Shown one piece after another: positions 2,746 to 36,200 of a stretch of DNA of 64,000 nucleotides. Position numbers and translations under genes: made by a program. The stretch's first letter is position 1. Every line of letters starts with the position of its first letter. Where the stretch lies: assembly GCF_041296385.1 (NCBI RefSeq), contig NC_091023.1, positions 25,235,924-25,299,923 on the forward strand, given 5' to 3'. The notes beneath the pieces are model-generated. The model ran no database searches. It was given only the letters and a program-made list of their open reading frames with translations, and was not told where the DNA came from. This DNA is from Aphelocoma coerulescens (taxonomy: Eukaryota; Chordata; Aves; Passeriformes; Corvidae).

Positions 2746-2899
2746 CCTATGTGTATAGAACACCAACATCCCAACAGATAACACCCAGTGCGCCCAGAAA
2801 TGAACATCATCTATATATTTATGAATCACACCGTGCCTATCTGTACCTGTACCGAGGGAGGGTGTGTGCAGGGGTATCATGTACCCACAGCCCCTCGAG

Positions 2900-3650
2900 T
2901 TCGGGGGGGTGGGGGCGAGAAAGCGGCGGCCGATCCCGAGCTCCGGGGAGGGGCGGGGGCGTGTCCGGGGCGCGTCCGGAGCGCGGCCCCGCCCCCCACG
3001 CGCCGAGGACGCGGCCGTTCCCGCGCGGTGCCGCCGAGCGGATCCGCCGCGATGTCCGGCCCGGCCCAGGAGCCCGACAGGTGAGCGGCCGTGGGCTCCC
3101 GGGGCTCCCCTTGTCCCCCGCCATCCTCCTGCAGCCTCCCCGCCGCCCCCGGGGCTGCCCGGCGTTCGCCGCCGCCCTCCCCGCTGTCGTCCCCTCCCGC
3201 TGTCCCGGCGCACCCCCTGCGCCCTCCCGCTGTCCCCCAGCACCCTCTCGCTGTCCCCCTGCATCCTCCCGCTGTCCCCCAGCCCCGCCCCCGCATCCTC
3301 CCATCCCCCACCCCACCTGCATCCCCGCATCCTTCCGCTCCTCCACCCCCTCCCGACCCCCCCATTCCTGGGCACCGAGCCCGGGGGTTCCCTCCCGTCC
3401 CCGAACCCCCCCCGTCCCCGCGCAGTTTGGGTGCCCGTGCCCGGCCGTGCACCTGCAGCGGGGGCTCCGGGCCCCGCCGGCCGCGCCGCGCATCCCCCGC
3501 TGCTGCAGACAAAGCGCCGGGCGAGGCAGCGCCGCCCCCGCACCCCCCGGCCCCGCCGCACCGCCCCCGGTGCCCCCCGGTGCCCCCCGGTGCCCCCCGG
3601 TGCCCCGAGCCCGGGCAGCGAGGCTCGTGCTTATCTCCCCCGTGTTATCG
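2900..3650 (+). promoter_or_regulatory. CpG-rich promoter region of the FIIND-death-domain gene
   Basis: G+C and CpG density rise sharply around 2900, bracket the predicted first coding exon, and fall away by about 3650. No TATA box lies at a sensible distance from the start codon; TATATATTTAT near 2812 is about 230 bases upstream of it. This fits a TATA-less CpG-island promoter. Confidence 0.6.
3052..3080 (+). CDS. FIIND-DD gene, exon 1 (start codon)
   Basis: Encodes MSGPAQEPD and ends in phase 2 before GTGAGC. Chosen because it is an ATG inside the CpG-rich promoter whose donor phase fits the next exon. No transcript evidence is available, so another 5' exon is possible. Confidence 0.65.
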
Positions 3651-6600
3651 CGCTCTGGGAACCGCTGCCCCACCAGGCTCCTCTGCTCGGCAGCGCCCGT
3701 TCCCCGCCGCAATTAATGGCTGCAGTTAATTAACTGCACAATGCCCGGGGCTTTGCCCGGGTGGGTTTTTTGTCTCTTTTGGTGCTTTCTCCCCCCCCCC
3801 CCGCCTGTGCGCTGCCGAGCTGTTTGCCAGCGCGGGAGGAGGGAGATGCAGCTGCGAGGGTTAGGAGGCGGCGCGGAGGGAAGCGATCCCAGTTTAGCAA
3901 GCCGGCACTTGGTGCAAGGGCTGCAGGGTTGCTCAAACATCGCTTGGCTCCGCCCCTGGAGAGCGTCCAGACTTCATCCAAATCCTCCAGATAAATAATT
4001 CTTGTGTTGTTTTGTTTTTTTTTCCTCAAGATACAGTTTGGAAGAGCAAACTGTTGTGTAATTCCTTGTTGGGGAAAACCTTTCCCACTTCTTCCTGCCC
4101 TTGACCCAGAAACTTCTCCAGCCCCTGCAGCCACTTTGCTGTGCTTTGCCAGGACGCCCCAGCTGGCATCGCTTCCCTGAGTTCCCCAGGAATCCTCACC
4201 CGTTAGGGACTGATTTTCCTGCCTCTGCCATTCCCATCTATTTATTTATTTTTCAGTTTTGTGTCTGAGTGCCCCAGCATGCCCCGAGGCTCTGACCCCC
4301 GTGGTGGTGCCCGCTCATTCCAGGAGCATCCAGGATGGCCGAAAGCAGCCTCCTGAGCTGAGCAACTCCCACATCTTGGCTTCACCATCCCCAGCATCCC
4401 TCAGCATCTCTGGGATGGCCCTGTGACCCTCACCTACCTCCAAAAAAAAGCGGGCTGGATGCTTTTTCCCTGCCTGCTGTTCCAGCTGCCCCTTGGCAGG
4501 GCAGAGGTTCTGGAATATTTCCCGGTGCCACCACAGTGCAGGAGAGCTCAATGTCACCTGCTGGTTTATGGTGACTGCCCCCAGGGCCATTCCTGTCCTC
4601 AGGGCAGCTTTTCTTTGCTGGATCTGCCTGACAGATGTTGTGGAGCTTTGTGGAGCTCCAGGAAAAGGTTTCCAAACAGGATCATGATCTGTGAATGATA
4701 AAACCAGCAGATTTCCCCTTTCCAGGGGCGGATGGAGGCTGGAGGTTGGTGTGAATTTGCCACAAATGGGTCTGCTGGAGTTGTCTGCCACAGCTGAAGG
4801 CCAGAGTTTATCCAAGTTTCCTGCCTGGCTGGAGATTGGTTGGATTGCTCCCAAATCCAACGGGCACCTGGCACGGAGTCAAGGGCTTGGCAATGGGGGC
4901 TGGAACCAGGAGCTTGTGCCAGTGGGAATTGTGTCCAGCAGAGCCAGGTGTCCCCAGAAGGGCCAGGAGAGAGCCAGGGTCAGGGTGCTGCTGCAGGAGA
5001 TGGATGTTTAATCACCAAGCCCCATCCCAAGTCAGCTCCCAGATTCCCGAGGCTGGGAGCGATGCCAGCAGGCAGGGAGTGGGGAATGCTGCCCCTGTGG
5101 AAGCGTGGGAAAGGGCTGGCAGAGCTGCTCACGTGTGCCTGCTTTTGTCTTCCAGCGGAGCAGAGTCCCTCTCCTCGGATGAAAAAGGTACAGGGATTTT
5201 GGGAAATGCCCCTCCTTGGGAATGGGAATTCTATAACTGCCTTTAAAAACCTCGGTGTAAACCCTTAGTTTATGGATTATTTTGGTTGTTTGTGCTGGTT
5301 TTTAAAATGCCTGTTCTTTTGTTGTTTATTCCCTTTCTCTGAGTACAAAATTAGCAAGAGAAGAGTTAAATCCTTCTCCAGCTTTTATTCCCTGCTTTTC
5401 TCTGGCAGAGGTGACACCCAACGGCATGGAGGGATCGGGATCGGGATCGGCCGAGGAGCACCCGGAGGGTGAGCACACCATGGCTCAGGGATTTCCTCGC
5501 TCCTGCGGTGGTGTGGCTGGTCCTGCATCCCAAATTCCCCCACACCCACATCCCAAAGCACATCCTTGACTTTCCAGTGCTGGTTTCTCTTCAACTGACG
5601 TTTGTGAGAATAATTAATTAAAGCCACATTTGGTGCGTCCGCACGAGCCACGTCTGGTGGGACACACAGCTCCCACCAAGGCTGCTCCCACCTGCCATGG
5701 AAAACCATCATTTAACTGGGATGTGCCATGGCTGAAGCTCCAAAATAATCCCAAGACGCATAAAACATAAAAATTAAATGTTCTGAACGCCCTTCAGAAG
5801 GGCCTGGGTGACCCCAAAGTCTCCCCTGGAGCTGGGATTTGATGCTCTGATGCTTCTCTCTGCCTCAGTATTTTTTCTGCTCTGTCCCATTATCTAACCT
5901 GCTGGCTGGCCTGATGGATCCCAACCTGTGGATGGATCCCTGCGCTCCCATCCCACCTGTGCCTAACGGGGTGTGGTTTTTAAGGAGAGGCCAGTTCCGA
6001 AGGCAGCTCCAGCAGCAGCTCGGAAGAGGAGTCAGGTGAGCAGAACATTGTGATTGATCTGTAATCTCTTTTATAGAACTGCTGTTCAGTTTAAAGCAGC
6101 TGCTTCTCCTGGGAACAGTCTCACAGTTATTAGGGAATGCTAACTCTGATTGCTTTCCCAATAAAACTTTTGGGAGCCAAGGATTTCCTATCAATGATCG
6201 AAGGGCAGCAGCTCGTGCTGCTTTCGCCTCTCAGACACAACACCCATGGATGTTGCAGACACAATGCCCACGGATATTTTTACACCACAGCAGTTGTCCA
6301 AACACCAAGAGGCCATAAATTTCCTCAAAAGTTGGCAACAGAACTGGCCAAACAGGATGGACAGGAAAAGAATGAAAGGAAGCGCTTGCTGTTGGTGGGT
6401 TTGCACTTCCACGGCTTGTGTGCCAGCAGTTTATTGTGCTTTTGTGTAGTACTGCTAATTAAACAATTCCAATGTTTTTTCTCCCCAGATGCCGAGGAGT
6501 GGGATGGAGGCAGGCTGGGTGAGTGTGGTTTGTTGTCCCTGTTACCCCTTGCTCAGTGGGAGGAAGCCAGCTCGGATGAACGGCACCCGAGGCGTGCTGT

Positions 6601-9600
6601 GGGATGGCAGGAAGGATTTCCAGCCACCCCCTCCGTATCTTCTGGGAAAAGGAGCTGCTGGAGAGCATCCCTAGGAAGTGGGGGGTGGAGGCCACGAGCT
6701 TCCACGTGCAGGGAGTGCTCCTGGTGCCGTTCCAATCCTGCTGCATCTTGGGGATGGGATAGCAGGGCTTGGGAAGGCAGCCAGCTGCTGGCTGCTGTTT
6801 GCCAGGCTGTTTGCTGCAGCAAGGCCTTCTCTGGCTCTCCCAGCCCAGGAGGGTGTTGGAGTCCCAGGATAGCTCTGGGACAGCCTCCAGGATCCCTTTT
6901 TCCTGGGAGGGAGGGTGGGATGGGAAGCAGCTCATCTGGCTCTTGGCACGGTGGCTCTGCCACTCCCCTGCTCCCAAATCCACCCTTCAGGACACAACCT
7001 TTGGCCTGAAGTGCCAGTTCTGCTGGAATTCTGTCCTGTAGGATTCGGCCAGGAGAATCCAGGGCACTCTTAAATCATTTTAGGGACAAACACACTGCAG
7101 ACAATGTGGTGGCTGCTCCCTGGGAATGCTGTTCCCAGTTTCCATGCCAGGGGTTGTACTTTGTCCTTGGCACCATGAGGCACCATCCTGAGGATGAATC
7201 TTTAACCCCTGTGAAAATTTCCAGTAGTTTGGGCAACTTAGGAGCTGTTGGCAAATTTGTATCCTGATGTTCAGCTTCACCCCCAGGCTGTGCAAGGCCT
7301 GCAAGGACTCTCAGGAATGTTCTCCTTAGGATTTGCTGAATTTAAGCAAATGAAATTGTGGGATTGTCCTGGGTGAGTGTGAGCAGAAACCCTCTGGAGA
7401 CTGAGGTGTTTACTCCAAACTCCTTTTTCCTAGGGGAAGAACAGGAGGAGAAGGAATCCCCACCTCACAGCAATGAGCCAGGTAGGAACAGATCTCCTGA
7501 GGCCTTTTTTATTCCTGGCTCTTTAATTACTTGGCTGTTCTTGAGCTCATCTTCCTCTTTTCCCACCAGGAGGGAGCTGCTTGCCACCCTGTGAGCACTG
7601 CAGGAATGAAAACGTAGGTTTGTGAGGGAAAAGCCACCCACTTCTTTTGCATGAGATCATTTGCAATCTGTAATCCTAATTTCTTCTCACCTTTTTTAAG
7701 ATATTTTTTTAAAAATCTGTTTCCAGGACCAGAAGGAGCAAGTGACCCCCAGGAGACTTGCTGGAGGACAATTTATGTATGAATTTTTTGAATATAATGG
7801 GTTTAAGTTTACATTGTTCTGACCAAGGTGCTTCAGTCTTTGCTTGAAGTGGGAGAACGGCTCATTGTCTGCACAAATGCACCTGGATTTGTACTGGAAG
7901 GTGCACCCAAACCCTTAAAAATCACAGTTTAGAGCCTGTGCTGCCTCCAGATCCTGGCCCAAGAGAACTCTTGGGAGGGTTTTCCAGGATGCTGCCTTGT
8001 CTTGCTGCAATAATTAACAGCCAGCCCCTTGTTATGTGCTGGTTTCAGCCTGGATGCACGTGAGGGGTCTTGCCCTGCTTCACCCTCCCCTCTAGCACTG
8101 CATTTTCCCTTGGATGCAGCGCTATTCTCCCTCTGTCTGCCTTGGAATTGTCACTGTGGGATGTCCATGTATCCCTTGCTGTTCTCCACACTGGCTGCTG
8201 TTGTTATCCATGGAAAATGTTGGCTCTGACGCCGAGCCCTTCACGTGAGAGCAGCTCCCGGTGCAGGAAGTTTTATGCAAAATGCTCATTTACAGCTGTT
8301 TTGCATAGGCTGGGTGGGCCCTCAGTGGTTTTTACCAGCCCAGTGACAGCTCAGACCCAGAGAGGAGCACACTGTGGCTGCTGAGATAAAGCAGGAGGGA
8401 GCTGCTCCGTTACCCCGCCAGCTCCCGGTATTTTTGCCGAGTGCCGGATGTCCCTTGCAGGGCGCTGCTGGATGCGGAGGGCTCCTACCAGTGCAGCATC
8501 ACTGGGCTCATTTTCGAGGTGACAGGCACTGCCAGGATCACGTATTCCCTGTTATCCTGGAGCAAGTACGCCCACCTGGTGAAAAAGCCCTGGATCGTGG
8601 GCGGGCCCCTGTTCGACGTGCACTGCGACGCGCCCGGCGCGCTCAGCTCCATCCAGTTCCCGCACTGCCTCTGCCTGGGGGGTGAGTGTGGGGCCAGGGG
8701 CTGGGTTTGGTGCCTGGGGATGCTCTGGAAGTGCTGAGCCCTTGGATGTCCCCCCCAGATCACGGCGCTGGCGTGGCCTTCAAGGTGCTGCACATCAAGG
8801 GCGGGGGCGCGGCCATCGAGCCCTCGGCCGAGTTCTCGGCGTCGCACGTCAAGTGGGTGGTGAGCTCCCTGTCCCCCGTGGGACCCCTGATCCAGAGCCA
8901 GCAGCCCCTGCAGTACCACGGGGCCGTCATCCTCTACAAAGCCATCGATGAGCACCCCTCCCTGTCCTTCTGGGTCTACGTGGCCACCAACAACGACTCC
9001 TTCATAAAGGTACGGCCCGGGCTGGGAGCTGGGCCTGGGGAGGGTGGGGTAGGGAATCCTGGCGTGGTTTGTGTGGGAAGGGACCTTAAATCCCATCTCT
9101 TTCCACCCCCTGCCATGGGCAGGGACACCTTCCACTGTCCCAGGCTGCTCCAAGCCCCAATGTCCGGCCTGGCCTTGGGCACTGCCAGGGATCCAGGGGC
9201 AGCCACAGCTGCTCTGGGCACCCTGTGCCAGGGCCTGTCCACCCTCACAGGGAAGGATTCCTTCCCAATATCCAATCTAGACCTACAATCTTTGAATCTG
9301 AGGCCATTCCCCCTTTTTTCTGTCACTCCATCCTGTGTAAATTGTCTCTCTCCAGCTTTTCCATGTCCATTCTTTGTCCTGGTCTCTTCTCCCAAGGAAT
9401 AAGCGACAGGACAAGAGGAAGCAGCCTCAAGTTGTACCAGAGGAGGTTTAGATTGGACATTAGGGAAAATTCCTTCAGGAAAAAGCTGGTCAAGCATTGG
9501 AACAGGCTGTCCAGGGCAGTGGCAGGGTCCCCAGTGAAAATTTGGGAATTTGGGAAAGCAGCTGACAATGAATTCATCCAGGTGCCACCAACTTTCCTGC

Positions 9601-12600
9601 TGCCAAGGACCACGTTGGCAATAACCTCAGAGGAGAACAGAGCCTGTCTGCAGAGAAAAGAGCTATGGAACTAACCCTGGATAAAATTACAGCTCTAGAA
9701 AGTTCCTTGCATTGCCCTGCAATGGGTTATAATTAGGAAATTGGGTTTGTGGGGTTATTCAGGAGCTCTGGCAGGAGCAGGACTTGAATTTACCCTATTA
9801 CAGTGAGGACAGTGACAAAACCCTGCCTTTTATTGGGGTTGCAAACTCTCTTATTTCACCCCCATGGCAAAATAGCTGGAGAGGTTTGGTGATGCTTTTT
9901 GAGTGTGGTTATTCCACAGCTTTCTGGGAAGTTTGGGGTCGTGGCTGTGCTTGTAGAGCTGGGGCCAGAGAACAGCCCAGGCAGCCACATGAACACAGGT
10001 TTTAAATGTTAATTCATCTACTAGAATGAGTAACCTTGAAATAATAACCTTGAAATGGTATTTTTTACGTTTTAGGACATCTCAAAAGCTGTGAAGCACT
10101 CAAATAAGAAATTTGTTAAAATTGACAAGCCTGCCGTGTGCCAAAAATTACTGCAGGAAGGAAAGAAGTACAGATTGATCTGTGAGCCAGAAGCTGAAAT
10201 AACTCCTGAGGTGAGTCCCTTACACTCACCCTTGCTTCCTGCATTGCAGCTGCCCTGGAAATTTGGCACAAAAAGGAGCCATTTGCCTCTTAGAGCCCTA
10301 AAATTTTGGGATGAAATCCTGATGCTGAAGTCAACAGCAAAACTCCGGGGAGATTGGAGTTAGGCTCGGATCTGTCCCAACAGCCAGTTGCCTTCTCTTC
10401 AGTTTATCTTAGAGAAATATTTATTTTTGACATGTTTCTGTTGTGTAGGAGATTGAATTTGTTGATGGATCACTCTTGAAGCTGAAGAGTTACTTTGAAG
10501 TGTACTTGGAGAAGCCTGATGACTTCACCATGTCCCTGGTGGAGCAGGACTCGGATGAGACCGTCTGGAAAGCCAAACTCCGAGAGAGTGAGTCCTTGGG
10601 AACCAGGGAATGGTCTGGGATGGAACAGACCTTAAAGGTCACCCAGTTCCACCCCTAGGGACCCCTTCCCCTATCCCAGGCTGCTCCAAGCCCCAGTGTC
10701 CAGCCTGGCCTTGGGCACTGCCAGGGATCCAGGGGCAGCCACAGCTGCTCTGGGCACCCTGTGCCAGGGCCTGCCCACCCTCCCAGGGAGGAATTCCTGC
10801 CCAATATCCCATCCATCCCTGCTCTCTGGCAGTGGAAAGCCATTCCCTGTGTCCTGTCCCTCCATCCCTTGTAAGTTGTCTCTTTCCATCTTTCCTGTAG
10901 CTCCTTCAGGCACTGGGAGGCCCCAGTTAGGTCACCCCAGAGCTTCTCCTCTCCAGGCTGAACAATCCCAGCTCTCCCAGCCTTTCCTCCCAGCAGAGCT
11001 GCTGGTCATGGAATGTTTGTTTTTGGAAGGGACCTTAAAGACCATTTAGTTCCAACCCCCCTGCCTATTATTCCATGTTATAACATATTATTCCATATAT
11101 TATCCATAGAATTGTATAATATAATATGAAATTGCATATTTTGCATTGTAACTTGCAATCTCTCTGGCCTATTTGGGCCTGCTGCAGCACGTTGAATAAA
11201 AGGGGAAAAATCTCATTCTGTCAAACCTCAGGGGTTGGAATCCACCCAACAGCTTTGCTTTGTGCCTGGGAATTCCTGGAGGTGGGGCCCAGCACTGGGA
11301 ATTCCTCCCTCACGTTTGTCTCCTGTGACCTTTCCCAGGGGATTGGATCCATTATGACCAGAACAAGAACGAGCAGAGGAGGAGCACAGCCAGTGAGTGA
11401 CTTTGCAGAGAACTTGGGGTTGGGGTGGTTTGTTCCTTGGGCCCCTCTCTGCCTCTGGGGAGAGGTGACACAAGCGACAGCACCTCTGATCCCTTCCCAG
11501 GTGTGAAGAAGCGGAAGCCAGCCCTCAGCATCCTGGAGGAAGAGGGGCTCCACAGCAAAAAGCAGAAGACTGGCAGCACTGCAGGTGGGGCCTCGCTGTG
11601 GCCTTGGGAAGAGCCTGGTTGGGGTTGTTTTGTGTCCTGGGAGTTGAAACCCAGCTCACCTTTTAAAAGACTTTTCCCTCTGCAATGGTCCAGGCTTGGG
11701 GGAGAGCAGCTGGAAAGGTGTCTGCTGGAAAAGGAGCTGGGGGTGGTGGTTGGCAGGGCCTGGACATGAGCCACGGGTGGCCAAGGAGGTCCCAGCAATG
11801 CCCACAGGCCCAGGGCAGTGCCCATCCCCTGTGCTGGCACTGCTGAGGCTCCTCCAGCCCTGGGGGCGGTTTTGGGACCCTCACAAGGACATGGAAGGGC
11901 TGGGGCATGTGCAGGGAAGGGAATGGGGTTGGGAAAGGGGCTGGAGCAGCTGAGGGAGCTGGGAAAGGGGCTCAGGCTGGAGCAAAGGAGGCTCAGGGGG
12001 GACCTTGTGGCTCTGCACAAGTCCCTGACAGGAGGGGGCAGCCGGGGGGGTCAGGCTCTGCTCCCAGGGAACAGGGACAGGAGAGAGGGAACGGCCTCAA
12101 ATTGCAGCAGAGAAGGTTGGGGTTGGATATTGGGGAAAATCCAATGTTTTTCAGATGGAATGGGCACAAAAAGCTTAACAGACCAACAGCTGCTGGCGGT
12201 CGCCAAGCTCCTGGACCGGCACTGGAGGGAGGTCGCCATCGAGTGTCTCCAGATGGAGATGAAGGACATCGAGGACATCCAGGCCATGGAGAAGGACGTG
12301 AACATTCAGAAATTGCAGGTGCTGAGGAAGTGGAGAGACAGGGAGCAGGGCAATGGATCTGCAGAGGCTTTGCAGAGAAGCCTCGGGGAAAAAGCGACCT
12401 ACGAGATCCTGCAGACGCTGCAAGGTATCAGCTCCTTGGTTACTGAATCCATCCCTGGCTCAGCTGGACTTTGGGAATTCCCATCAGGGAATTTACAAAT
12501 CCCCAGTGTGTGGTTTATTATGGAGGTCAAAATGGTGTCCCTTCTGCTTTCAGCAGTGACTTGATGTTTTGGGGTGTTTGATCCTTCCCTTCAGAAATGG

Positions 12601-12611
12601 ATACAAAATGA
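3052..12611 (+). CDS. FIIND (ZU5-UPA) plus death-domain protein, 16 exons, 504 aa predicted
   Basis: Coding exons: 3052-3080, 5156-5187, 5409-5468, 5985-6035, 6489-6518, 7434-7481, 7570-7613, 7727-7776, 8461-8681, 8759-9009, 10076-10210, 10449-10587, 11339-11392, 11501-11584, 12155-12424, 12595-12611. Every junction has AG/GT and the phases chain into one open frame of 1515 nt. Order: acidic Ser/Glu-rich disordered N-terminus (1-84); CxxxCxxC (Cys87, 91, 94); ZU5 half of a FIIND (about 115-226); UPA half (about 227-366); basic linker with KKRK and KKQK (383-404); death domain (about 416-499). The FIIND shows the VGGPLFDV motif and His200/Glu209/Ser227 spaced as in NLRP1/CARD8. In those families the FIIND cuts itself and the C-terminal piece is released when the N-terminal piece is degraded, which then assembles a caspase platform. 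Here the effector is a death domain rather than a CARD, so caspase-1 engagement cannot be assumed; PIDD1-like assembly is another possibility. The gene lies tail to tail with IL12A. The first and last exons are the least certain. Confidence 0.85.
5156..7776 (+). CDS. FIIND-DD gene, exons 2-8: acidic microexon array
   Basis: Seven small exons of 30-60 nt (5156-5187, 5409-5468, 5985-6035, 6489-6518, 7434-7481, 7570-7613, 7727-7776) encode an acidic, Ser-rich linker including SGSGSAEEHPEGEAS, a run of six Ser followed by EEES, and EEQEEKES. Exons 3-6 all begin and end in phase 1, so each can be skipped without changing frame. Exon 7 adds CLPPCEHC, a possible metal-binding cluster. The region is probably disordered and rich in casein-kinase-2-like sites. 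Confidence 0.75.
8461..8681 (+). CDS. FIIND-DD gene, exon 9: ZU5 subdomain
   Basis: Encodes the first part of the FIIND, with YQCSITGLIFEVTG, a Trp-containing strand and KPWIVGGPLFDVHC. The VGGPLFDV core is the same motif found in CARD8 and NLRP1. The exon begins by completing an ATG codon from exon 8 and ends in phase 1 before GTGAGT. Confidence 0.93.
8759..9009 (+). CDS. FIIND-DD gene, exon 10: autoprocessing centre and start of UPA
   Basis: Encodes VLHIKGGG (His200), IEPSAEF (Glu209) and VVSSLSPVG (Leu226-Ser227). Human NLRP1 (H1186, E1195, S1213) and CARD8 have the same His+9 Glu and His+27 Ser spacing, with cleavage between Phe and Ser. Here the residue before the Ser is Leu. UPA strands follow (YHGAVILYKAIDEHP, LSFWVYVATNNDS). 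The exon ends in phase 0 before GTACGG. Confidence 0.93.
9062..9378 (-). mobile_element. CR1 LINE fragment, left half of a head-to-head pair
   Basis: Reverse-oriented CR1: begins with the complement of the 3' end (GGTTTGTGTGGGAAGGGACC) and continues through GGCAGCCACAGCTGCTCTGG to the CTCTCTCCAGCTTTTCC region. It lies in intron 10 and ends directly at a plus-oriented CR1. Confidence 0.85.
9379..9535 (+). mobile_element. CR1 LINE fragment, right half of a head-to-head pair
   Basis: Starts at CTGGTCTCTTCTCCCAAGGA and continues through AGGACAAGAGGAAGCAGCCT and the TTTAGATTGGACATTAGGG motif, typical of the CR1 3' untranslated region in plus orientation. It is truncated before the 3' end. Confidence 0.8.
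10076..11392 (+). CDS. FIIND-DD gene, exons 11-13: rest of UPA
   Basis: Exons 10076-10210, 10449-10587 and 11339-11392 encode the remaining UPA strands, including CQKLLQEGKKYRLICEP and ETVWKAKLRERDW. The last corresponds in position to the TLVWxxxVKPxDL segment of NLRP1/CARD8. CR1 fragments occupy the intron 10588-11338. Confidence 0.88.
10605..11062 (-). mobile_element. Two CR1 LINE fragments in intron 12
   Basis: 10605-10990 is a long reverse-oriented CR1 (GACCTTAAAGGTCACCCAGT ... GGCAGCCACAGCTGCTCTGG ... CTTCTCCTCTCCAGGCTGAA). 11008-11062 is a second reverse start (CATGGAATGTTTGTTTTTGG then GGGACCTTAAAGACC). Confidence 0.85.
11501..11584 (+). CDS. FIIND-DD gene, exon 14: basic linker between UPA and death domain
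   Basis: Encodes SVKKRKPALSILEEEGLHSK followed by KQKTGSTA. The KKRK and SKKQK clusters about 17 residues apart resemble a bipartite nuclear localisation signal. They lie in the fragment that would be released after FIIND processing. Confidence 0.8.
11890..12140 (+). mobile_element. CR1 LINE fragment directly upstream of the death-domain exon
   Basis: Plus-oriented CR1 body: GCATGTGCAGGGAAGGGAAT, CTCAGGGGGGACCTTGTGGC, then GGGGTTGGATATTGGGGAAA. It ends about 14 bases before the death-domain exon acceptor. Confidence 0.85.
12155..12424 (+). CDS. FIIND-DD gene, exon 15: death domain
   Basis: One exon carries almost the whole death domain. It has the family pattern: LTDQQLLAVAKLLDRHWREV (helices 1-2 with the conserved Trp), DIEDIQ (helix 3), then VLRKWRDREQGNGSAEALQR (helices 4-5 with the KWRDRE signature) and YEILQTLQ (helix 6). 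The KWRDRE motif favours a death domain over a CARD. Confidence 0.93.
12595..12611 (+). CDS. FIIND-DD gene, exon 16: short terminal coding exon (tentative)
   Basis: CCTTCAG at the acceptor is followed by a frame that adds EMDTK and a TGA stop. It is in phase with the death-domain donor. A rival last exon begins at 13504, so this assignment needs transcript support. Confidence 0.5.
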
Positions 12612-12889
12612 AGAATAGTTTTGCCCTGAGTATGGAGAGCACTCTCAGCATGACCTGGGTGTCCAAACTGGTTCCTGGGATTCCCTGGAAGTCCCAAGAA
12701 GAGCTGCTTGGGTCTTTATTTCAGGAATGGTTAATGAACACCTTCCCTGCTGGATGACTTGGTGGTTCCATCTCTTATGGGAATGGATTTCCCAAGGCAG
12801 CTCCCCCTCCTTTCTGTGGAGCTCTTGTGTTCAGTTCACCTTCTGCAAATCCAAATTATTCAGGGAGCTGGGAATTATCCCTGTCCGTG

Positions 12890-12955
12890 GCAGGGGTTGG
12901 AATTAAATGACCTTTAAGGTCCTTTCCAACCCAAACCATTCCATAATTTTATGGA
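12890..12955 (+). mobile_element. CR1 LINE 3' end fragment
   Basis: Has the GACCTTTAAGGTCCTTTCCA ACCCAAACCATTCC signature in plus orientation. Confidence 0.75.
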
Positions 12956-13074
12956 CTCAGCCAGCCGAGGGCAATTGTCCTGAAAAATTAAATGTGGGGT
13001 TGTTTTTTTTTTTTTTTTTTGCAACAGCAAAACTTTGTTCTTAATTCCTTAACTCAGGACAAAAGGAAACGTGG

Positions 13075-13303
13075 GACAAAACTCCTCAGGTTGTGCCTGG
13101 GGATGTTTAGATTGGATATTGGGAAAAATTTCTTCATGGAAAGGGCTGTCCAGGCTGGGCACAGTCACCACCCTGGAGGGGTCGAGCAGATGTGTGCATG
13201 TGGCTCCTGGGGACGTGGGGCAGTGGTGGCCTTGGGATGGAGTGGGGGCATGGTTGGACTGGATGGTCTTAGAGGGCTTTTCCAGCCTAATTCCATGACT
13301 GAT
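13075..13303 (+). mobile_element. CR1 LINE fragment, second subfamily
   Basis: Plus-oriented: CTCAGGTTGTGCCTGGGGAT, TTTAGATTGGATATTGGG, then GGTTGGACTGGATGGTCTTA and AGGGCTTTTCCAGCC. The 3' end differs from the AAGGTCCCTTCCAACC type found elsewhere in the window. Confidence 0.8.
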
Positions 13304-13503
13304 TCTCCCTGGAAACAGCCTGGCTGGCAAAGGTGGAGAGCTCTCCCTCCCAGACTCTGTGCCACAGCCTCGTGCTGCCTTGGGGGCTTTCATACATTTA
13401 TTTCTCAACTGGAATATTTTTAAATTCAATTTCTTTCTCCACTTGGGTCTTGCAGGCACTTCCAGAGATCCCATAATCCATGTGTGTTTTTTCCTTCCCT
13501 CAG

Positions 13504-13651
13504 GTTTCTCAGCTCAGAGCTGAGCCAGCTGAAGGAGGAGGAGGGAGGGAGCTTCCCAATCCAACCATTCTGCTCCTCTGGGATCCTGCTGGGATTCAGG
13601 AAGGTTCAGGGCATCACCACTCAGGCAGGATCCTCCAGGGAAACGTGAATG
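13504..13651 (+). other. Possible alternative last exon of the FIIND-DD gene
   Basis: A good acceptor (TTTTTTCCTTCCCTCAG) precedes sequence whose one-base-shifted frame reads FLSSELSQLKEEEGGSFPIQ. This would extend death-domain helix 6 plausibly. Joined in phase to exon 15, however, it gives only GFSAQS and a stop. Confidence 0.3.
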
Positions 13652-14792: not shown

Positions 14793-15200
14793 TAGAATAA
14801 ATAGGGAATATCATCATAAATAAATCAGGGAATATCATCATAAATAAATCAGGGAATAGAATGGAATATAAATAAATCAAGGAATATCATCATAAATAAA
14901 TCAAGGAATATCATCATAAATAAATCAAGGAATATCATAAATAAATCAGGGAATAGAACAGAATATCATAAAAAAACCATGGAATATCATCATAAATAAA
15001 TCAGGGAGTAGAATGGAATATAAATAAATCAAGGAATATCATCATAAATAAATCAGGGAATAGAACAGAATATCATAAATAAATCATGGAATATCATCAT
15101 AAAGAAATCATGGAATGGAATGGAATATCATAAATCATGGAATGGAATGGAATATCATCAATCATGGAATGGAATATCATCGTAAATAAATCATGGGGTA
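14790..15200. repeat. AT-rich minisatellite, unit about 23 bases
   Basis: Variants of AATATCATCATAAATAAATC plus AGG recur about 15 times, with interspersed GGAATGGAATATC units at the right end. It probably lies in the IL12A 3' UTR or just beyond it. Confidence 0.85.
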
Positions 15201-15520
15201 GAATATCCTGAGTTGGAAGGCACCCCCGAGGAAATGGATTATCATAAAGAGGTCTTAATTCCTGAGAAATCAGCTGGATAAATGTGGATAAATTAGAGTT
15301 AGGAACATTTTGGTGCTCGGATGTAGCTTAAATTCCAAAAATCTGGGAATCTAACATGGTTTAAAAGGCACAACTCCCTAGAAACGAACTCTGGGAAATT
15401 CAGAATTCCTTTGGAAGCCGGTGGGTGTTGATCCCACTGTTTTTCCTCCAGGATCTCCTTGGGTTGATCCCACTGTTTTTCCTCCAGGATCTCCCTGGGT
15501 TCTGGGTGGGTTCCTGGGAT

Positions 15521-15712
15521 TCAGAGGGAGCTCAGGAAGCTCAGCATCCTGCTGATGGTGACGCTGCGGATGCGGAAAGCCTGGAGGACACTGCAGAGCC
15601 TCAGCCTCTCCGGGAACGGGGCCGAGCCCAATCCCGATCCCAATCCCGATCCCACTCCTGCTCCCAATCCTGCCAGCACCTCCGGAACCTTCCCAGTGCT
15701 GCTGCCCAGGGC
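15521..15712 (-). CDS. IL12A: IL12A exon 5: helix D and stop
   Basis: 63 codons plus TGA. The first 30 residues include [16 protein letters not shown], derived from a hexanucleotide repeat; the remainder is the strongly conserved helix D ending in MLSFLSSL. Confidence 0.94.
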   Translation of the reverse strand, partial: ALGSSTGKVPEVLAGLGAGVGSGLGSGLGSAPFPERLRLCSVLQAFRIRSVTISRMLSFLSSL

Positions 15713-18700
15713 CTGCACAAGGAAAAGGGTCACAGCCAGTCCAGAAAATGTCTACAACAAAAAACCCCGTGGAGTTTTACCCCCTCTGGGATGAACGGCA
15801 AAACTGGGAAGTGAGGAGGCGTTGAGGGAAAAATGTGGGATATTTAATTGATCGTGAATAGAACGAGGGGAAAAATTGGAAATATTTAATTGATCATTAA
15901 GAAGGTGAATGTTGAAGTATTTAATTTATGCTGAGTAGACAGAGGGTAAATTGGAAATATTTAATTGATCATTAAGAAGGTAAATGTTGAAGTATTTAAT
16001 TTATGCTGAGTAGACAGTAAATTGGAAATATTTAATTGATCACTAATAGGGTAAACTCTTAAATTCTTAATGTCAGCATTAATGGGCTGGGGGTAAAATT
16101 TGGAGTATTAAATGATAGCATTAATAGGTACATTTTGAAATATTTAATTATGGCATGAATAAGGTAAAATTTGAAGTGTTTAATGATATCATTATTAAGG
16201 TAAATTTTGAAATGTTTCATGTTAGCATTAATAGCCTGAGGGTAAAATTTGAAGTATTTAATGTTATCATTATGAAGGTAAAATTTGAAATATTTAATGA
16301 TTGTGTGAGTAGACTGAGGGTGAAATAAGAAGTTTTTAATGATATTATGAAGGTAAAATTTGAAATATTTCATGATAGCATTAATAGACTGAGGATAAAA
16401 TTGGAAGTATTTAATGTTATCATGAATAGACTAAAATTTGAAATATTTAATTTATCATTAATAGACTGAGGGTGAAATTGGAAGTATTTCGTGTTATCAT
16501 TAATAGGGTAAATTTTCAATTATTTAATGATTGCATTAATAATCAGAGGGTAAAATTTGAAATATTTAATTTATCATGAATAGACTGAGGGTAAAATTTG
16601 AAGTATTTAACGATAACGCTAATTTACTGAGGATGAAATTTGAAATATTTAATGATATTGTTAATAGGGAAAGTTTTGAAATATCTAATGTTAGCCTTAA
16701 TAAACTGAGGGTAACATTTGAAATATTTAATTTCTCATGAATAAACTGAGGGTAAAATTGGAAGTATTTAATTATCATTAAGATAATTAAGATCACGAAG
16801 AGGGTAAATTTTCAAATATTTTATGGTTGCATTAATAGTCTGAGGGCAAAATTTGAAATATCACAAGTTATAATTAAGGTAAATTTTGAAATATCTCATG
16901 ATAGCATTAATAGACTGAGGGTGAAATTTGAAATATTTAATTTATCATGAATAAGGTAAATTTAGAACTATTTAATGCTTGCATGAATAGACTGAGGGTA
17001 AAATTTGAAATACTGAATGTTATCATGAATGAGGTAAATCTTGAAATATTTCATGGTAGAATTTATAGACTGAGGCTAAAATTCAAAGTATTTATCAACC
17101 TTTAGTCCAGCCTGTGTCACATCCAGTGCAGCAGGTCTGTTATATTTCAATATTTGGAGGAGAAATGGAGCTTTTTATTCCCTATTTCCTGAATTTTTGG
17201 GTAAATCCAGGCGGGAATCCTCACCTCCATCATCCCATCGAGAGTCACCAGCAGCTGGGGGTCGTTGAGGTTCCTCAGCTGTGCCCTGTAGGCTCTGAGG
17301 TCCTCAGAGATGCCCTGCAGGCATTTGCCCTGGGAAAGAGGGAATTGTTAGGAAATGTGGGAATGTGCCGCTCATTGAAACACCCAACGAGCCAAAAGAA
17401 GGGATTTTGTGGGAAAATTGCATTTACCTTATCAAAAGTTGGTCTTTCCAGGGCTGGGCAGTTTCCAGGCTGCAAATTAAACGAGAAATAGGATTTGTGA
17501 TTTAATGGAAGTGTGGATTATGTATTGCATGAAACTGGGAGGTAAAAGTGACATTTTCTCTCGATTTCTCTCGATTTCTCGCTGTTTTACCCCTGGATCC
17601 TCAGCTGTGCAGGCTTTGATTGTGTTCATTTGGTTCTCCGTGATGTCCTCCAGATCCACCTCTTCAAGGGTGCACTCGAATCCCAGGGTGCCGAGTTCCT
17701 GTGGGGAAGAGGGAATAAAAAAGGGTCACTGACAGCCTCATGATACAGTTTCTATGTTTATATGTATCTGTAAATACACAGAATAATTTGATGTATCTCA
17801 GCTGTCTGTGCTCAGATGAATCCCAGGAATGAGGCTCTGTGAGGACTGTGGTTAAATATGAAATACAGGAAATAGATTGGGAATAATCCCAGGTTTTGCA
17901 CCGGTTTGTTTTATGTTTTATTGTGAATTGCTCTGCCTCCATGGCATTAAATGATTCTGTCAGACGTGGAATTTATGGAGAACTTTATGGCAGTAGAGTT
18001 TCAAATGGAAAGGATCTCTTAGAAAGAGACAAATAGCAAATACGGTGTGAGGAACAGCACCTGTCTGGTGCTGGGGCTTTTGGGATCCTCTGAGATGAAA
18101 GGTGTGAAAACAGCAGGGAATTTTAGTAAAACTTTTAGCAAAAAAATAGGAAAAGAAGGAGACCTGAGCAAAGCGCTGTCCTAAAGGGCTGATCAGGGCA
18201 GCATGAAAGCAGAGACAGGGATGGAGACTTGAAGGGAGGCTCCAGGGAGCGTCCACCCTCCTGGTACCCTCAGCAGCCTCTGGGTGCCCAGCTGGTGCCT
18301 TCAGCACCTCCTGGGGACTGCCTGGGGACCAAAACTGCCCGCCCGGGGACCAAAACTGCTCCAGCATTTCCTGGCTTGGCACCACTGCCCCATCCCTGCC
18401 TTCCTGGGTGCCATCCCTACCCCATCCCTGCCCTCCTGGGTACTTCCACTGCCCCATCCCTGCCTTCCTGGGTGCCATCCCTACCCCATCCCTGCCCTCC
18501 TGGGTATTTCCACTGCTCCATCCCTGCCCTCCTGGGTACTCTCAGCAGCCCCTGGGTGCCCAGCTGGTGCCTTCAGCGCTGCCTGGGGACCACCACTGAC
18601 GTCCTGGGTGCAGTAATTACCCCAGCACTGCCTGGCTTGGTACCATCCCCACCCTCCTGGCTCCTACCACTGCTCCATCACCGCCCTCCTGGATCCTCTC

Positions 18701-30225: not shown

Positions 30226-33200
30226 CTGGGGACAGGGAGGGGCTGTTATTCCCTGTGCCAAGGAAAAGATGGAAAACCCAACCCATCTGCTCCGGCACTG
30301 AGCTGGGAATTGTGTTTTCCCAAGGGAAACATGAAGTTTTCTGGATCTCTGCCGGGGCTCCTTCCTGGCAGGAGGGTGGGTGAAGGGCCAGGGAAGCCCC
30401 TTTGGGTTTCTCCAAACTCCAAAATGGTTTGGGGCAGCTGGGATTTTTCCCTCCCTTCCCACAGGGATGGCAAACACCTCTACCCCAAATAACAGAGGGA
30501 TGGGGACAGCCAGTGCCCCACCATTCCCAAAAAAATGCCATTTATGAATTGCAGGGAGGAAGCAAAGCACTTCCCAAAACACAGGAGGAGATCCCAGGAT
30601 ATGAGGTGGCCCTGACACAGCTCCAGCTCCCATCCCAGACTTCCCCCTCACCACTTGCTCTTCATTTTTTTTCCAAGCTTTAATGCTTCAGTCTGGAATC
30701 ACAGTCCTGGTGTGCTGATGCTACCCAGGGCCTCTTCTTTTCCAGCTCCTTTCATCCCACATCTTTACACTTCTGAATAAAATACTCAGAATGTTTTGGA
30801 ACACTTTCTATTTCAGAAGCCCATCCCCAATCATCCCAAAGGAAAATGCTTCCTGAGCCTTGCTGCCAGCAGATGGAGTCCTTTAGGGAACCTGCCCATA
30901 TCCTGCAAGGCTTTTTGTTTTAGCAGTTATTAAATATTAATATTTAAGTGATTCCAAAGTTCTCCCCCTTGTCCAGCCCTCCTGATGGCAAAGACAGATC
31001 TCTGTCCAGCCTGGCCTTGGACACTGCCAGGGATCCAGGGGCAGCCACAGCTTCTCTGGGAAATCCCTTCCAGGGCCTCCCCACCCTCTCAGGGAACAAT
31101 TCCTTCCCAATATCCTGGATGGCAAAAGCTTTAGTCCCAGAATTCTGCTGGAAGAAAAGCCCCACACGCTGCTGATGGTAAATGGGGAGCTGTGAGGGGA
31201 GAGAAATTCCTGCTTCACCTGGTGAGATCCTCGATGTCCACCAGCATGGCATCCTGCTCCGTGTGCAGCTCATCCCGGATCAGCAGCAGCTGCACCAGCT
31301 CCTCGTTCAAGCCTGCTCCAGGGAGAAATGGGGTGAGTTTGGGATGTCCTGGGGGACCCCAGGTTGGGATTTTCCCCACCAAGTGCCACATCCACAGGGC
31401 TTTTAAACCTCTGCAGGGTTGGGGACTCCATCACTGCCCAGGGCTGCACAGCCCTTTCCACTGAGAATATTTACATTTATCCCAGAGAACTGCTCTTAAT
31501 TAAAGGAGACTGACCCCAGAATAATTAAGCAATTACCACTTACTTTCTATCTGTGAGTGAAGGTCATTGACTATCACCTGTAGCTGCCCGATGGTCATGT
31601 CCCTTAGGTCAGTGGGTTTTAAACTTCTCTTCATCAGGCATTCACTGATATGAGGCATATGTGGCAGCTGGAAAGAAATGTTCACTATTTTACTGCTTCC
31701 TTCCAATATTTTACTGTTTCCTTCCAATATTTTACTGTTTCCTTCCAATTATTTCTATTTCTGAGCAGTTTGTCCCCTCAGTTTTGCATCCCCCCCTCAC
31801 AAACAGGCAGCAACGACTCCACCAAATGGAGGCCAAGCATCAACACAACACTGGGCCCAAGGCTCCCAGTCGACCAGGATCAGGAATGTTTGATGGAATA
31901 GGGGGTGAGGGTGATGGTGACAGCCCTGGACAAAGGCAGGAGTGCTCTGGGATGGCATGGGATGGGATGGGATGGGATGGGATGGGATGGGATGGGATGG
32001 GATGGGATGGGATGGGATGGGATGGGATGGGATGGGATGGGATGGGATGGGATGGGATGGGATGAACAGACTCCAGCTCAGAGGATGAGCAGCCTCAAGG
32101 CAGCACCAACCTCCAGCATCCCATTCCCTGCACCCATCCTGCTCCCCTAACTCCTTCCAGCTCCTGAGGCCAATCCCTTCTCCACCTCTCCTCCCCATGT
32201 CTCTCATCCCTGTGAGCCAGAGCCACCAGTGGTGTGGATGTCCCAGGGCTGGAGTCCCCCCTGGGGTCACCCCCGGCCCCACTCACAAGATCCGCTACGG
32301 GCGACTTCTTCCTGTTCTGCTTTTCCACCTCCACCTGCATCTTGGCCATGGGCTTTGCCATAGCCAAGGCCATCTTGGCCTCAGCCTGGAGCTTCTTTTG
32401 CCTGGTGAGGAAGTCCATGTCATCCAGGGACTCCGACTCCTCCTCCGTCGTGTCTCTGTCGGAGTAGGATGAGCTCTGCTTGCTCTGGGGAAGCAAAGAA
32501 GCCACAGCAAAGTTTGACCTATTTTTGTGCTCTTTTCTACGGAACTGTGAAGAGCATGGGTTTATTTTTTTATCTTAATCTGCAAGATTATCTTTGAAAA
32601 TCAGAGTGACTCCCAGATAGGGCTTCTGGGCTTTGAAGGGAAAGAGGAGCCAGCAGATCAGTAGGTGCTGAAAGGCCACACGGGTTGAGCTGGAGGGAAA
32701 CACCTGGGGCTGTGGTGGTGTATCCACTAAGGAATGTCATATCCAAGCAGGAAAAGAGAGGGAAGCTGCCGGGAGCTGATACCACTTCCTATCCATTCCC
32801 TGATTGTTCTCAGGGCCAAAAAGAAAGGCAGGAAGGCAGGAAGGCAGGAAGGCAGGAAGGCAGGAAGGCAGGAAGGCAGGAAGGAAGGAAGGAAGGAAGG
32901 AAGGAAGGAAGGAAGGAAGGAAGGAAGGAAGGAAGAAGGAACCTTCATGTGAAGGTCCACAGCAGCCAGGGGCGTTTCTTATCTGTCCCTCGGCATCTCA
33001 CACTTTACTGAGGGCTGAAAATGCTGCTCTGGGGTTTAGAGTTGCTATTTTAACAGGATCAGCTTCCTCATGGACTCCCTGTGGCTTTCCTGCTCCAGGC
33101 TGAGTTCCCAGACCCACCATGGGTGACAACGGCGTGTCCAGGCTGGTCTCTGTCTTGCTGTCATCTCCATCGCTGTCCTTGTCACTGCCACTGTCGTTCA

Positions 33201-36200
33201 CAAAGCAGATCTGCAGGTTCATCCCACTCTGTAACCTGGGGGAGGACAGGGGGAGGTGGCACCGCCGTCCCCTGGGGCTGGGACTGCCACCAACCCCGTG
33301 CTGGGTCACCAGTTCATCAGGTGACCAGTTCAGCGTGGCACTGGGAACTCACTGCCAGGGCTGCTACCACCATCTGCTGATAAACTGCAGAATTACCCCC
33401 ACGCTGCAGAGGGTTTTGATTCCTTTTTATGATCATTATTTTGGAATATCATTACTCTTTTTGATTATTCAGCTCTGATTACATTAAATAAACTGCATAA
33501 AACACAACAGAAGATATGGAACGTGTTGCTATAAAAATGCATAAATTACTGGCAAATAAAGAGTAAAAAAATTAAAGAGAAATGTATAAAGATAGAATTA
33601 ACATACATAGTAATATATGTCATAAAGTATTTTGTCAGTGGTGGAAATTATTTATTCACTGTTTGTATCCCAGACACTCCTGTAACACAAGAGTTTATTC
33701 CGGTGTTTTCCAGACCCCCCTGCTCCATTGCTGGATTGGGACTGATTAACCCCACCCAGATCCCCCTCCCCAGGAATGATTTTCTCTTGATGCAGTGGAT
33801 CAGGGAAGGGCATCCCAGTGCAGGCTGAGAGAAGGGAAAAGCACTTCTCCAGGTGAGAGATCCCAATCCATCACCACCTGCTGGAGATGGGGAATCCTCC
33901 ACATCCTGCTGCCTGTTATTCCTCATTCCCAGTGTGGTGGGAGCTTGTACTGGTCCTTAGGAACAGCAAACTCCCATTTTCCATCTATTTCTGTGGAGTT
34001 TATTAGCTACTACTACCCTAAAATAAATAAGATAAATAATTGTTTGTGGTGAAGGAGATGAGGCCCTGGCAGAGCAGCTGTGGCTGCCCCTGGATCCCTG
34101 GAATTGTTCCAGGCTGGGCTGGATGGGGCTGGGAGCAGCCTGGGATAGTGGGAAGTGTCCCTGCCCATGGATAGGGAATTGGATGAGCTTTAAGGTCCCT
34201 TCCAACCCAAGCATTCCACGATCCTGCTCTATAATTCCATACGAAAACATGGGAGCCACGTCCTGCAAAGGTTCCTGCAGGTCCTGGAACAGGGAATACT
34301 TCTCCTGGATTATAAATATTAACAAACACCAAAGCCTTCAGGCACAGCTGGCAGTTTCTGGGAGCACAGCTGCCAGACCATGATGAGCTGCGTTAATTAG
34401 AGCCGTGCTCTAATTATCAGACAGCAGCTCCTGGTTCAGCTGTAACTACACACAGCAAAGCTGTTTTCCCTTTCACACGATCTGCAGCTCAAATTAATTC
34501 CACGACTGTACCTGTCCCCTGGAACAGCAGGATTCCTCCTGGATTCCTGCCTCCCTAAGACTCCTTTCTTCTCCCACTCCATGGCAACAGGCAGAGCTTC
34601 GCTCCCAGCATGGGAGGTGTTGGATGCTTCACCCAGCTGAACACAAACAGGACTTTCTGGAGTGTATTTGATGCAAAAATCTTAAAAATCCAAGTGAGGA
34701 ACCCGTGAGCAGCTCCAGGGATGGAGCCATGTCTGAAGCAGAGCTTGGGGATGTGGCGGGGAGGCAGGAGGCCATGTTAGAGCTTATTTTGTCCATTCTC
34801 TGGTGCTTTCTGAGCATGAATCACAGAATTCCAGAATCATGGAGGCTGGAATTCCCAAATGGTTTGGGTTGGAAGGGACCCTAAAGTCCATTTTATTCCA
34901 CTCCCTGCCATGGGCAGGGACACCTTCCATTATCCCAGGCTGCTCCAAGCCCTGTCCAACCTGGTCTTGGATGCTTCCAGGGATCCAGGGGCAGCCACAG
35001 CTCCCCTGGGACACCTGTTCCAAATCCTGAATGAAAACCTGAAGGAAACCTCATCCAAAAAACTTCACTTCATTTCCTTTATCCCCTAAACATCCAAATA
35101 CCTTTCTACCCACTTTTAAAGGAGGATTTTCCCACATCATTTACGAGTATTCACATAGCACACAAGTGCTGCAAAGAAAACAAGGAAAACTCAGGAATAT
35201 GGCTGAAAGCAAAGAGTGAGAGATGATCCTGGGATGTCCCACCGGAGAGATCTCCCACTTCCCAGGCTGCCCTGAGGTTTTGGGCTCTGGCTTACCGGGA
35301 GGACAGGCTGGGCTTGCCGCTCTTGCTGCAGCTCGTGTAGAGCCCGGGGCCATCGTCGAAAAAACTGCCCAGAGCCAACTTCTGCCGGATGGACTCGCGC
35401 TCATTCTTCTGGGCCTGCAGGGGAGGGACAGCGAGGGATGAGCTCGGGGAGGGACAGGGAGGGATGAGCTCGGGAAGGGACAGCGAGGGATGAGCTCGGG
35501 GAGGGACAGCGAGGGATGAGCTCTGGGAAGGGACAGCGAGGGATGAGTTTGGGAAGGGACAGCGAGGGATGAGCTCGGGGAGGGACAGCGAGGGATGAGC
35601 TCGGGGAGGGACAGCGAGGGATGAGCTCTGGGAAGGGATAGGGAGAGATGAGCTCAGGGAAGGGACGGCGAAGGATGAGCTCAGGAAGGGAGAGTGAGGG
35701 ATGAGCTCGGGAAGGGAGAGTGAGGGATGAGCTCGGGAAGGGACAGCAAGGGACGAGCTCTGGGAGGGACAACGAGGGATGAGCTCGGGAAGGGACAGCG
35801 AGGGATGAGCTCGGGAAGGGACAGCGAGGGATGAGCTCGGGAAGGGACAGGGAGGGATGAGCTCGGGAAGGGACAGGGAGGGATGAGTTTGGGAAGGGAC
35901 AGGGAGGGATGAGTTTAGGAAGGGACAGGGAGGGATGAGCTCGGGAAGGGACAGCGAGGGATGAGCTCGGGGAGGGACAGGGAGGGATGAGTTTGGGAAG
36001 GGACAGGGAGGGATGAGTTTGGGAAGGGACAGGGAGGGATGAGTTTGGGAAGGGACAGGGAGGGATGAGTTTGGGAAGGGACAGGGAGGGATGAGCTCTG
36101 GGAAGGGATGGGGAGAGATGAGCTCAGGGAAGGGACAGCGAGGGATGAGCTCTGGGAAGGGACAGGGAGGGATGAGCTCTGGGAAGGGACAGGGAGGGAT

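Follow-up and report, generated by a model that had tools for sequence, protein, structure and literature searches.

A conserved vertebrate gene joining a FIIND to a death domain, in the bird Aphelocoma coerulescens

The FIIND is known chiefly from NLRP1 and CARD8, both of which feed CARDs to caspase-1. PIDD1 is laid out as LRR, ZU5-ZU5, UPA and death domain, and UNC5CL is grouped with UNC5 and ankyrin as proteins with ZU5-UPA-death-domain tails. The subject of this analysis is a gene in a 64,000-nucleotide stretch of the Aphelocoma coerulescens genome (contig NC_091023.1, positions 25,235,924 to 25,299,923; the whole stretch is called the window), in which a FIIND is followed by a death domain. 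In the portions available of the work on NLRP1, the ZU5 half of the FIIND holds the UPA-CARD until degradation of the N-terminal part frees the UPA-CARD fragment; the freed UPA then forms oligomers and promotes CARD filaments, and the fragment is sequestered by DPP9 via the fragment's N-terminal loop (PMC7794362, PMC8081665, PMC8591160). The FIIND also occurs in polypeptides with TRADD-N domains (PMC8195603, seen in part), and so it does have other partners.

An earlier note, made from the sequence alone, had described the gene as sixteen exons read in one frame and coding for 504 residues. When the model was rebuilt on the window sequence, the single frame and the sixteen exons, with 15 introns that all run GT..AG, stood, but the last exon did not: the one first proposed (12595-12611, + strand, EMDTK) was rejected because the relative P0017 and other passerines carry a GFSAQS-type end. 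The corrected gene spans 3052-13523 on the + strand, and its product has 505 residues. Its parts are:

3052-3080, 5156-5187, 5409-5468, 5985-6035, 6489-6518, 7434-7481, 7570-7613 and 7727-7776, + strand: exons 1-8, acidic, serine-rich N-terminus with a conserved CEHC..EQVTPR end (GT-AG introns, one frame)
8461..8681, + strand: exon 9, FIIND (ZU5-like half), including VGGPLFDV and the PH histidine His183 at 8663-8665 (Pfam FIIND, 1.6e-35)
8759..9009, + strand: exon 10, in which the ZU5-like half ends and the UPA starts (alignment of active-site residues)
Within exon 10, + strand: His200 (8791-8793), Glu209 (8818-8820), Leu226 (8869-8871), the predicted nucleophile Ser227 (8872-8874) and Pro228 (8875-8877)
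10076-10210 and 10449-10587, + strand: exons 11 and 12, UPA-FIIND (Pfam, 2.5e-27), with the KP(P/A) patch from 10127
11339-11392 and 11501-11584, + strand: exons 13 and 14, basic linker, with clusters KKRK from 11506 and KKQK from 11557 that resemble a bipartite nuclear localization signal
12155..12424, + strand: exon 15, death domain (Pfam Death, 27.5 bits; six-helix model; fold matches)
13504..13523, + strand: exon 16, the corrected last exon (GFSAQS, stop TGA; preceding AG, right phase, end of P0017)
2801..3400, no strand: CpG-island-like promoter region over exon 1 (GC 0.745 and CpG observed/expected 0.84, versus 0.52 and 0.29 in 1-2800)

P0017 (391 residues, 99% identical) differs from the model by four substitutions between the exon 8-9 junction and residue 499, and then ends in GFSAQS; the remaining fetched passerine relatives have similar C-termini, for example GFLAQS, DFLAQS and GFSAQC. 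Its source, 'lgn', which we take to consist of assembled public sequencing data, does not by itself prove a transcript, since 'lgn' also has unspliced genomic frames (P0208-P0216). P0017 is judged to be spliced because its contigs are at most 1494 nucleotides long, whereas exons 9-16 cover 5,063 bases; furthermore, its start Met arises solely across the exon 8-9 splice. Consequently, the joining of the FIIND exons to the death-domain exon, on which the earlier note had let its reading stand or fall, is seen in a spliced sequence. P0096, with 501 residues and contigs of no more than 2157 nucleotides, is likewise spliced-like; it is skink-like, with a 94% match to P0159 (Tiliqua) across 390 residues. 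The alignment of the window protein with P0001 (Hirundo, 88%) starts at residue 1. As a separate observation, several mammal-like sequences (P0208-P0211, P0216) allow in-frame reading through the intron between the two FIIND exons, and the lynx model P0116 includes that intron. Introns 10 and 12 (9090-9674, 10636-11049) hold near-alike frames that recur across the window and resemble a bird interspersed repeat, presumably CR1-like.

A Pfam search of the whole protein matched FIIND (PF13553; 122.1 bits, cut-off 25.8, E 1.6e-35) and UPA-FIIND (PF23679; 96.2 bits, cut-off 27, E 2.5e-27), both above the curated cut-off, and both halves were matched at E<=0.1 in all 50 scanned relatives. These 50, also used for the conservation columns and the model, were drawn from the 155 proteins then fetched; of the later total of 216, one further analysis took 37 and the tree 22. 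Exon 15 alone belongs to Death (PF00531; 27.5 bits, cut-off 22.6) and matched no CARD, and Death was found in 50/50 scanned relatives, among which there was no CARD match. In the window protein at E<=1 there was no Pfam family for NACHT or LRR, no ZU5 and no THOC1 N-terminal family; NCBIfam, whose families are bacterial and archaeal, predictably gave no match. The domain matches are far beyond chance, and both the gene and its domain architecture, FIIND-UPA and death domain with none of NACHT, LRR or CARD, are real, as had been proposed. NLRP1, with 26-28% identity in the FIIND-UPA, thus differs in its NACHT, LRR and CARD, for which the gene here has no match and a death domain instead, and in the residue before the cut (P1), which is Leu here. 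CARD8 is alike in having an N-tail, a FIIND and then a death-fold domain, in its length of ~500 residues and in its catalytic residues, but has a CARD where this gene has a death domain, a FIIND-UPA identity of 24%, and Leu in place of Pro after the nucleophile.

According to the available part of PMC3210808, the CARD8 mutant S297A is no longer cleaved, both His-252 and His-270 are crucial, and E279A lowers cleavage. The counterparts here are His183, His200, Glu209 and Ser227, with Leu226 replacing Phe, and alignment to NLRP1 and CARD8 bears out the claim that the active-site spacing is like theirs. The predicted new N-terminus after the cut is Ser-Pro, as in NLRP1. Across 23 aligned proteins, His183, His200, Glu209 and the stretch V-S-S-L-S-P-V-G-P are invariant, including the catalytic H200, E209 and S227; in the 50-protein alignment, the two His columns and the Glu column do not vary, and each column of the cut site is conserved at 90% or more. 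Site scoring, which first gave 146 of 155 proteins, later found the cut-site motif in 188 of 216, the remainder apparently being fragments or models without the motif. His and Glu are in place in 186 of the 188; P1 is Leu in 187 and Phe in one, leatherback turtle P0063. One skate isoform model is without the cut-site stretch. Read from sequence, autoprocessing of the FIIND is well supported.

The same residues bear on a different reading, namely that the FIIND no longer cuts itself and the protein is an uncut scaffold. The near-universal Leu at P1 would be expected of it. However, His, Glu, Ser and the next Pro are retained from sturgeon, bichir and teleosts to birds in the alignment with NLRP1 and CARD8, and the turtle protein does have Phe, so that this reading is considered unlikely, though not negligible. 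In rat NLRP1, the Phe before the cut points into a hydrophobic pocket (PMC8081665, available in part); by analogy, Leu could fill that pocket.

Downstream of the cut, the UPA patch reads KPP in 181 of 216 proteins, and the linker has two conserved basic clusters, a putative bipartite nuclear signal, with R386 and K401 invariant in 23 aligned rows. The model of exon 15 is a six-helix death fold (pLDDT, a per-residue confidence score, of 92.6), and its best fold matches are death domains, with RAIDD, RIPK1, THOC1 and FADD tied within 1 Z. By sequence, THOC1 is the top match (1wxp, 2.3e-10), and THOC1, ankyrin and RIPK1 stand above PIDD. The C-terminus had been called PIDD/FADD-like; by sequence THOC1 and ankyrin outrank both, and by fold the differences are small. 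These findings raise the possibility that the protein is a nuclear adaptor tied to mRNA export or transcription, in which the FIIND times release and the output is not cell death. Besides the THOC1 match and the conserved basic clusters, two records (P0170, P0184) call relatives THOC1 or THOC1-like. On the other side, the fold comparison does not single out THOC1 (p84) and the THOC1 N-terminal part is not matched here; to our knowledge, THOC1 has no FIIND. The nuclear adaptor, too, seems improbable, at about the level of the scaffold.

Other explanations fare worse. The gene could be a ZU5-UPA-death-domain protein of the PIDD1, UNC5CL or ankyrin kind that merely resembles a FIIND protein. It is like PIDD1 in having a self-cutting (here predicted) ZU5-like domain, then a UPA and a death domain. 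It is unlike PIDD1, in which cleavage is at HF/S (PMC3210808, in the part available), in that no LRR was found, one FIIND takes the place of the ZU5 pair and the PIDD death domain ranks lower by sequence. Since Pfam assigns it to FIIND and not ZU5, which also sets it apart from the UNC5CL, UNC5 and ankyrin tails, membership in the ZU5/PIDD group was rejected and is very improbable. Still less credible is a CARD8 ortholog with a poorly scoring CARD: many matches bear the source name CARD8, but with Death in all 50 relatives and no CARD listed, this orthology was rejected. That the joining is a gene-modelling error, for which only the wrong initial last exon speaks, was discarded as practically excluded by the spliced-like P0017 and P0096 and by the identical joining annotated in many vertebrates.

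Taken together, these results lead to the view that this is a third kind of FIIND protein, composed of an acidic N-tail, a FIIND (ZU5-like half and UPA), a bipartite basic linker and a death domain. By analogy, it would be a switch of the NLRP1/CARD8 type whose output domain has been changed from a CARD to a death domain, to which we give a probability of roughly 0.6. Because there are counterparts here of every NLRP1 part except the CARD (catalytic residues, UPA fold, KP(P) patch, Ser-Pro start), an NLRP1-type mechanism seems most likely, and the degradation-sensing switch put forward in the earlier note is plausible. In this mechanism, the FIIND would probably cut itself between Leu226 and Ser227, as its residues predict, and the halves would remain bound. 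Proteasomal loss of the N-terminal half could then, with about even odds, free the UPA-linker-death-domain fragment, whose UPA would self-associate and cluster the death domains. More tentatively, the free Ser-Pro fragment might, as in NLRP1, be restrained by DPP8/9 or a similar protein. A last step, more doubtful again, is that the clustered death domains would recruit a death-domain partner, the nearest folds being THOC1, RIPK1 and RAIDD, and perhaps in the nucleus; nuclear action is a guess suggested by the conserved basic clusters together with the THOC1-like death domain.

It should be noted that several points weigh against the switch. At P1 there is Leu, and not the Phe of the FS motif that marks the NLRP1/CARD8 subgroup; the CARD8 mutant F296H is severely impaired in cleavage (PMC3210808, as far as available), and no Leu mutant at this position was found in the available parts of the cleavage literature. 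In this species, the UPA patch is KPA rather than KPP, and Death on the whole protein scores 22.5 bits, 0.1 under the 22.6 cut-off. The nuclear signal is a prediction from the linker's letters. For UPA-CARD filaments, a linker of 25-40 Å was called optimal (PMC7794362, seen in part); the eagle model has a low-confidence linker of ~45 residues, which may be longer. Finally, the FIIND-UPA is 74% identical between eagle and hedgehog versus 67% between rat and human NLRP1, and so it evolves more slowly than NLRP1, unlike a fast-evolving pathogen sensor. Between eagle and hedgehog, the FIIND (67%) and UPA (78%) are better conserved than the death domain (42%).

The FIIND-death-domain family spans jawed vertebrates at large, a wider scope than the birds, crocodiles and turtles in which a search had been proposed, and in all three of which relatives were found. 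Protein searches with the window protein (234 matches, 120 listed), a hedgehog relative (362 matches, 120 listed) and a UPA-death-domain profile (104 matches, all listed) were used. Among the matches listed, the first query gave birds, turtles, alligator, squamates, echidna, marsupials and placentals; the second gave Carnivora, Artiodactyla with whales, Perissodactyla, Chiroptera, Eulipotyphla, pangolin, sloth and armadillo and, further down, echidna, marsupials, reptiles and birds. The profile added gharial, tuatara, snakes, coelacanth, sturgeons, paddlefish, bichir, hake, Danionella, Ilyodon and skate. Sturgeons, paddlefish, bichir, hake and skate carry a Pfam death-domain mark; coelacanth (models end before the domain), Ilyodon (diverges there) and Danionella (aligns through) do not. 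No amphibian was seen, the profile search having admitted only proteins of ~150-490 residues.

No primate, rodent, lagomorph, treeshrew, colugo or afrothere was named among the matches listed in these protein searches, in which some matches carry no species name; of the latter, P0140 and P0155 are nearest shrew and P0142 nearest bats, and not all can be placed. Intact annotated orthologs from these groups should have shown, because the hedgehog-relative list goes down to 554 bits and full-length matches from laurasiatherians and xenarthrans score no lower than ~770-790. Loss in primates, rodents, lagomorphs and afrotheres is thus probable, judging from their absence among the names listed. In an unrooted FIIND tree, NLRP1 and CARD8 form a branch of length 1.9 that joins next to skate (support 0.91), possibly by long-branch attraction, and such a tree cannot date the split. 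A profile search of the 1.33-Gb genome, introns not spanned, found one UPA-FIIND match, in exon 11; judged by this UPA half, the bird may have no other FIIND protein. Against this, a review that maps NLRP1 in several vertebrates, as far as available, states that all mapped NLRP1 proteins have FIIND, NACHT and LRR and names chicken among its tetrapods (PMC12436146).

The gene is real, conserved, mislabelled and undescribed in the literature searched. In databases its relatives are called CARD8, NLRP1a/b-like, THOC1-like, uncharacterized, or by a clone-type name. The coelacanth (Latimeria) record 'Si:dkeyp-97b10.3' (P0195), a fragment of this family that ends before the death domain, bears a name that resembles those given to zebrafish clones and was not found in the open literature searched. 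No description of a FIIND-death-domain gene was found there either, most subscription papers lying outside its scope; with the database labels borrowed, the claim that no named gene has this architecture held. The missing name may stem from there being no listed primate or rodent relative. CARD8 is itself without a rodent ortholog (PMC11202080, part of the text).

The gene lies in the order C3orf80-like frame (~8 kb upstream of the window), FIIND-death-domain gene (+), IL12A (-), SCHIP1 (-). The upstream frame (L002:1518-1976, - strand) matches DUF4719 at 1.2e-9, with LPSYEEVKHLPSYEE, and is presumably C3orf80; the other two of three frames upstream of the window gave no family above cut-off. 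The neighbours in the window are:

15521..15751, - strand: frame in which the IL12A last exon lies (PF03039, 26 bits versus a cut-off of 25)
32095..33348, - strand: SCHIP1 C-terminal exons (PF10148, 2.1e-25 and 3.2e-14)

The putative IL12A first-exon frame had no IL12 match in Pfam, with sub-threshold rows of other families only; it contains a 12-base GC repeat of 11.8 copies (18976-19116), which may mask a match. AT-rich tandem arrays (periods 24-161) with many AATAAA words occupy 14796-17094, downstream of the gene and around the IL12A end. Four neighbour frames (17069-17491 +, 15365-15814 +, 13049-13513 -, 41224-41616 -) had no family above cut-off. A 26-base minisatellite at 35420-36362 (36 copies, 91% matches) gives long proline-serine-leucine-rich frames on its minus strand, which might be misread as a gene.

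Here, a conserved FIIND serves a death domain, which means that the cut-and-release design is not bound to inflammasomes. Its catalytic residues, conserved beside a P1 Leu, offer a probe of what FIIND cleavage requires, and its Ser-Pro neo-N-terminus a probe of how general DPP8/9 control is. The public labels CARD8 and NLRP1 can mislead poultry, livestock and pet research. With relatives in dog, horse, sheep, chicken and several fishes, and in no listed primate or rodent, the distribution would be a natural knock-out if the loss is confirmed. It is conceivable, though we hold it only tentatively, that the gene represents an older FIIND branch: a slow-evolving, jawed-vertebrate-wide death-domain switch that is released by degradation, may act in the nucleus, is under DPP8/9-like control and has been lost in the primate-rodent lineage. 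If so, human and mouse immunology would never have met this gene, and NLRP1 and CARD8 would represent a broader design in a rapidly evolving form that carries a CARD.
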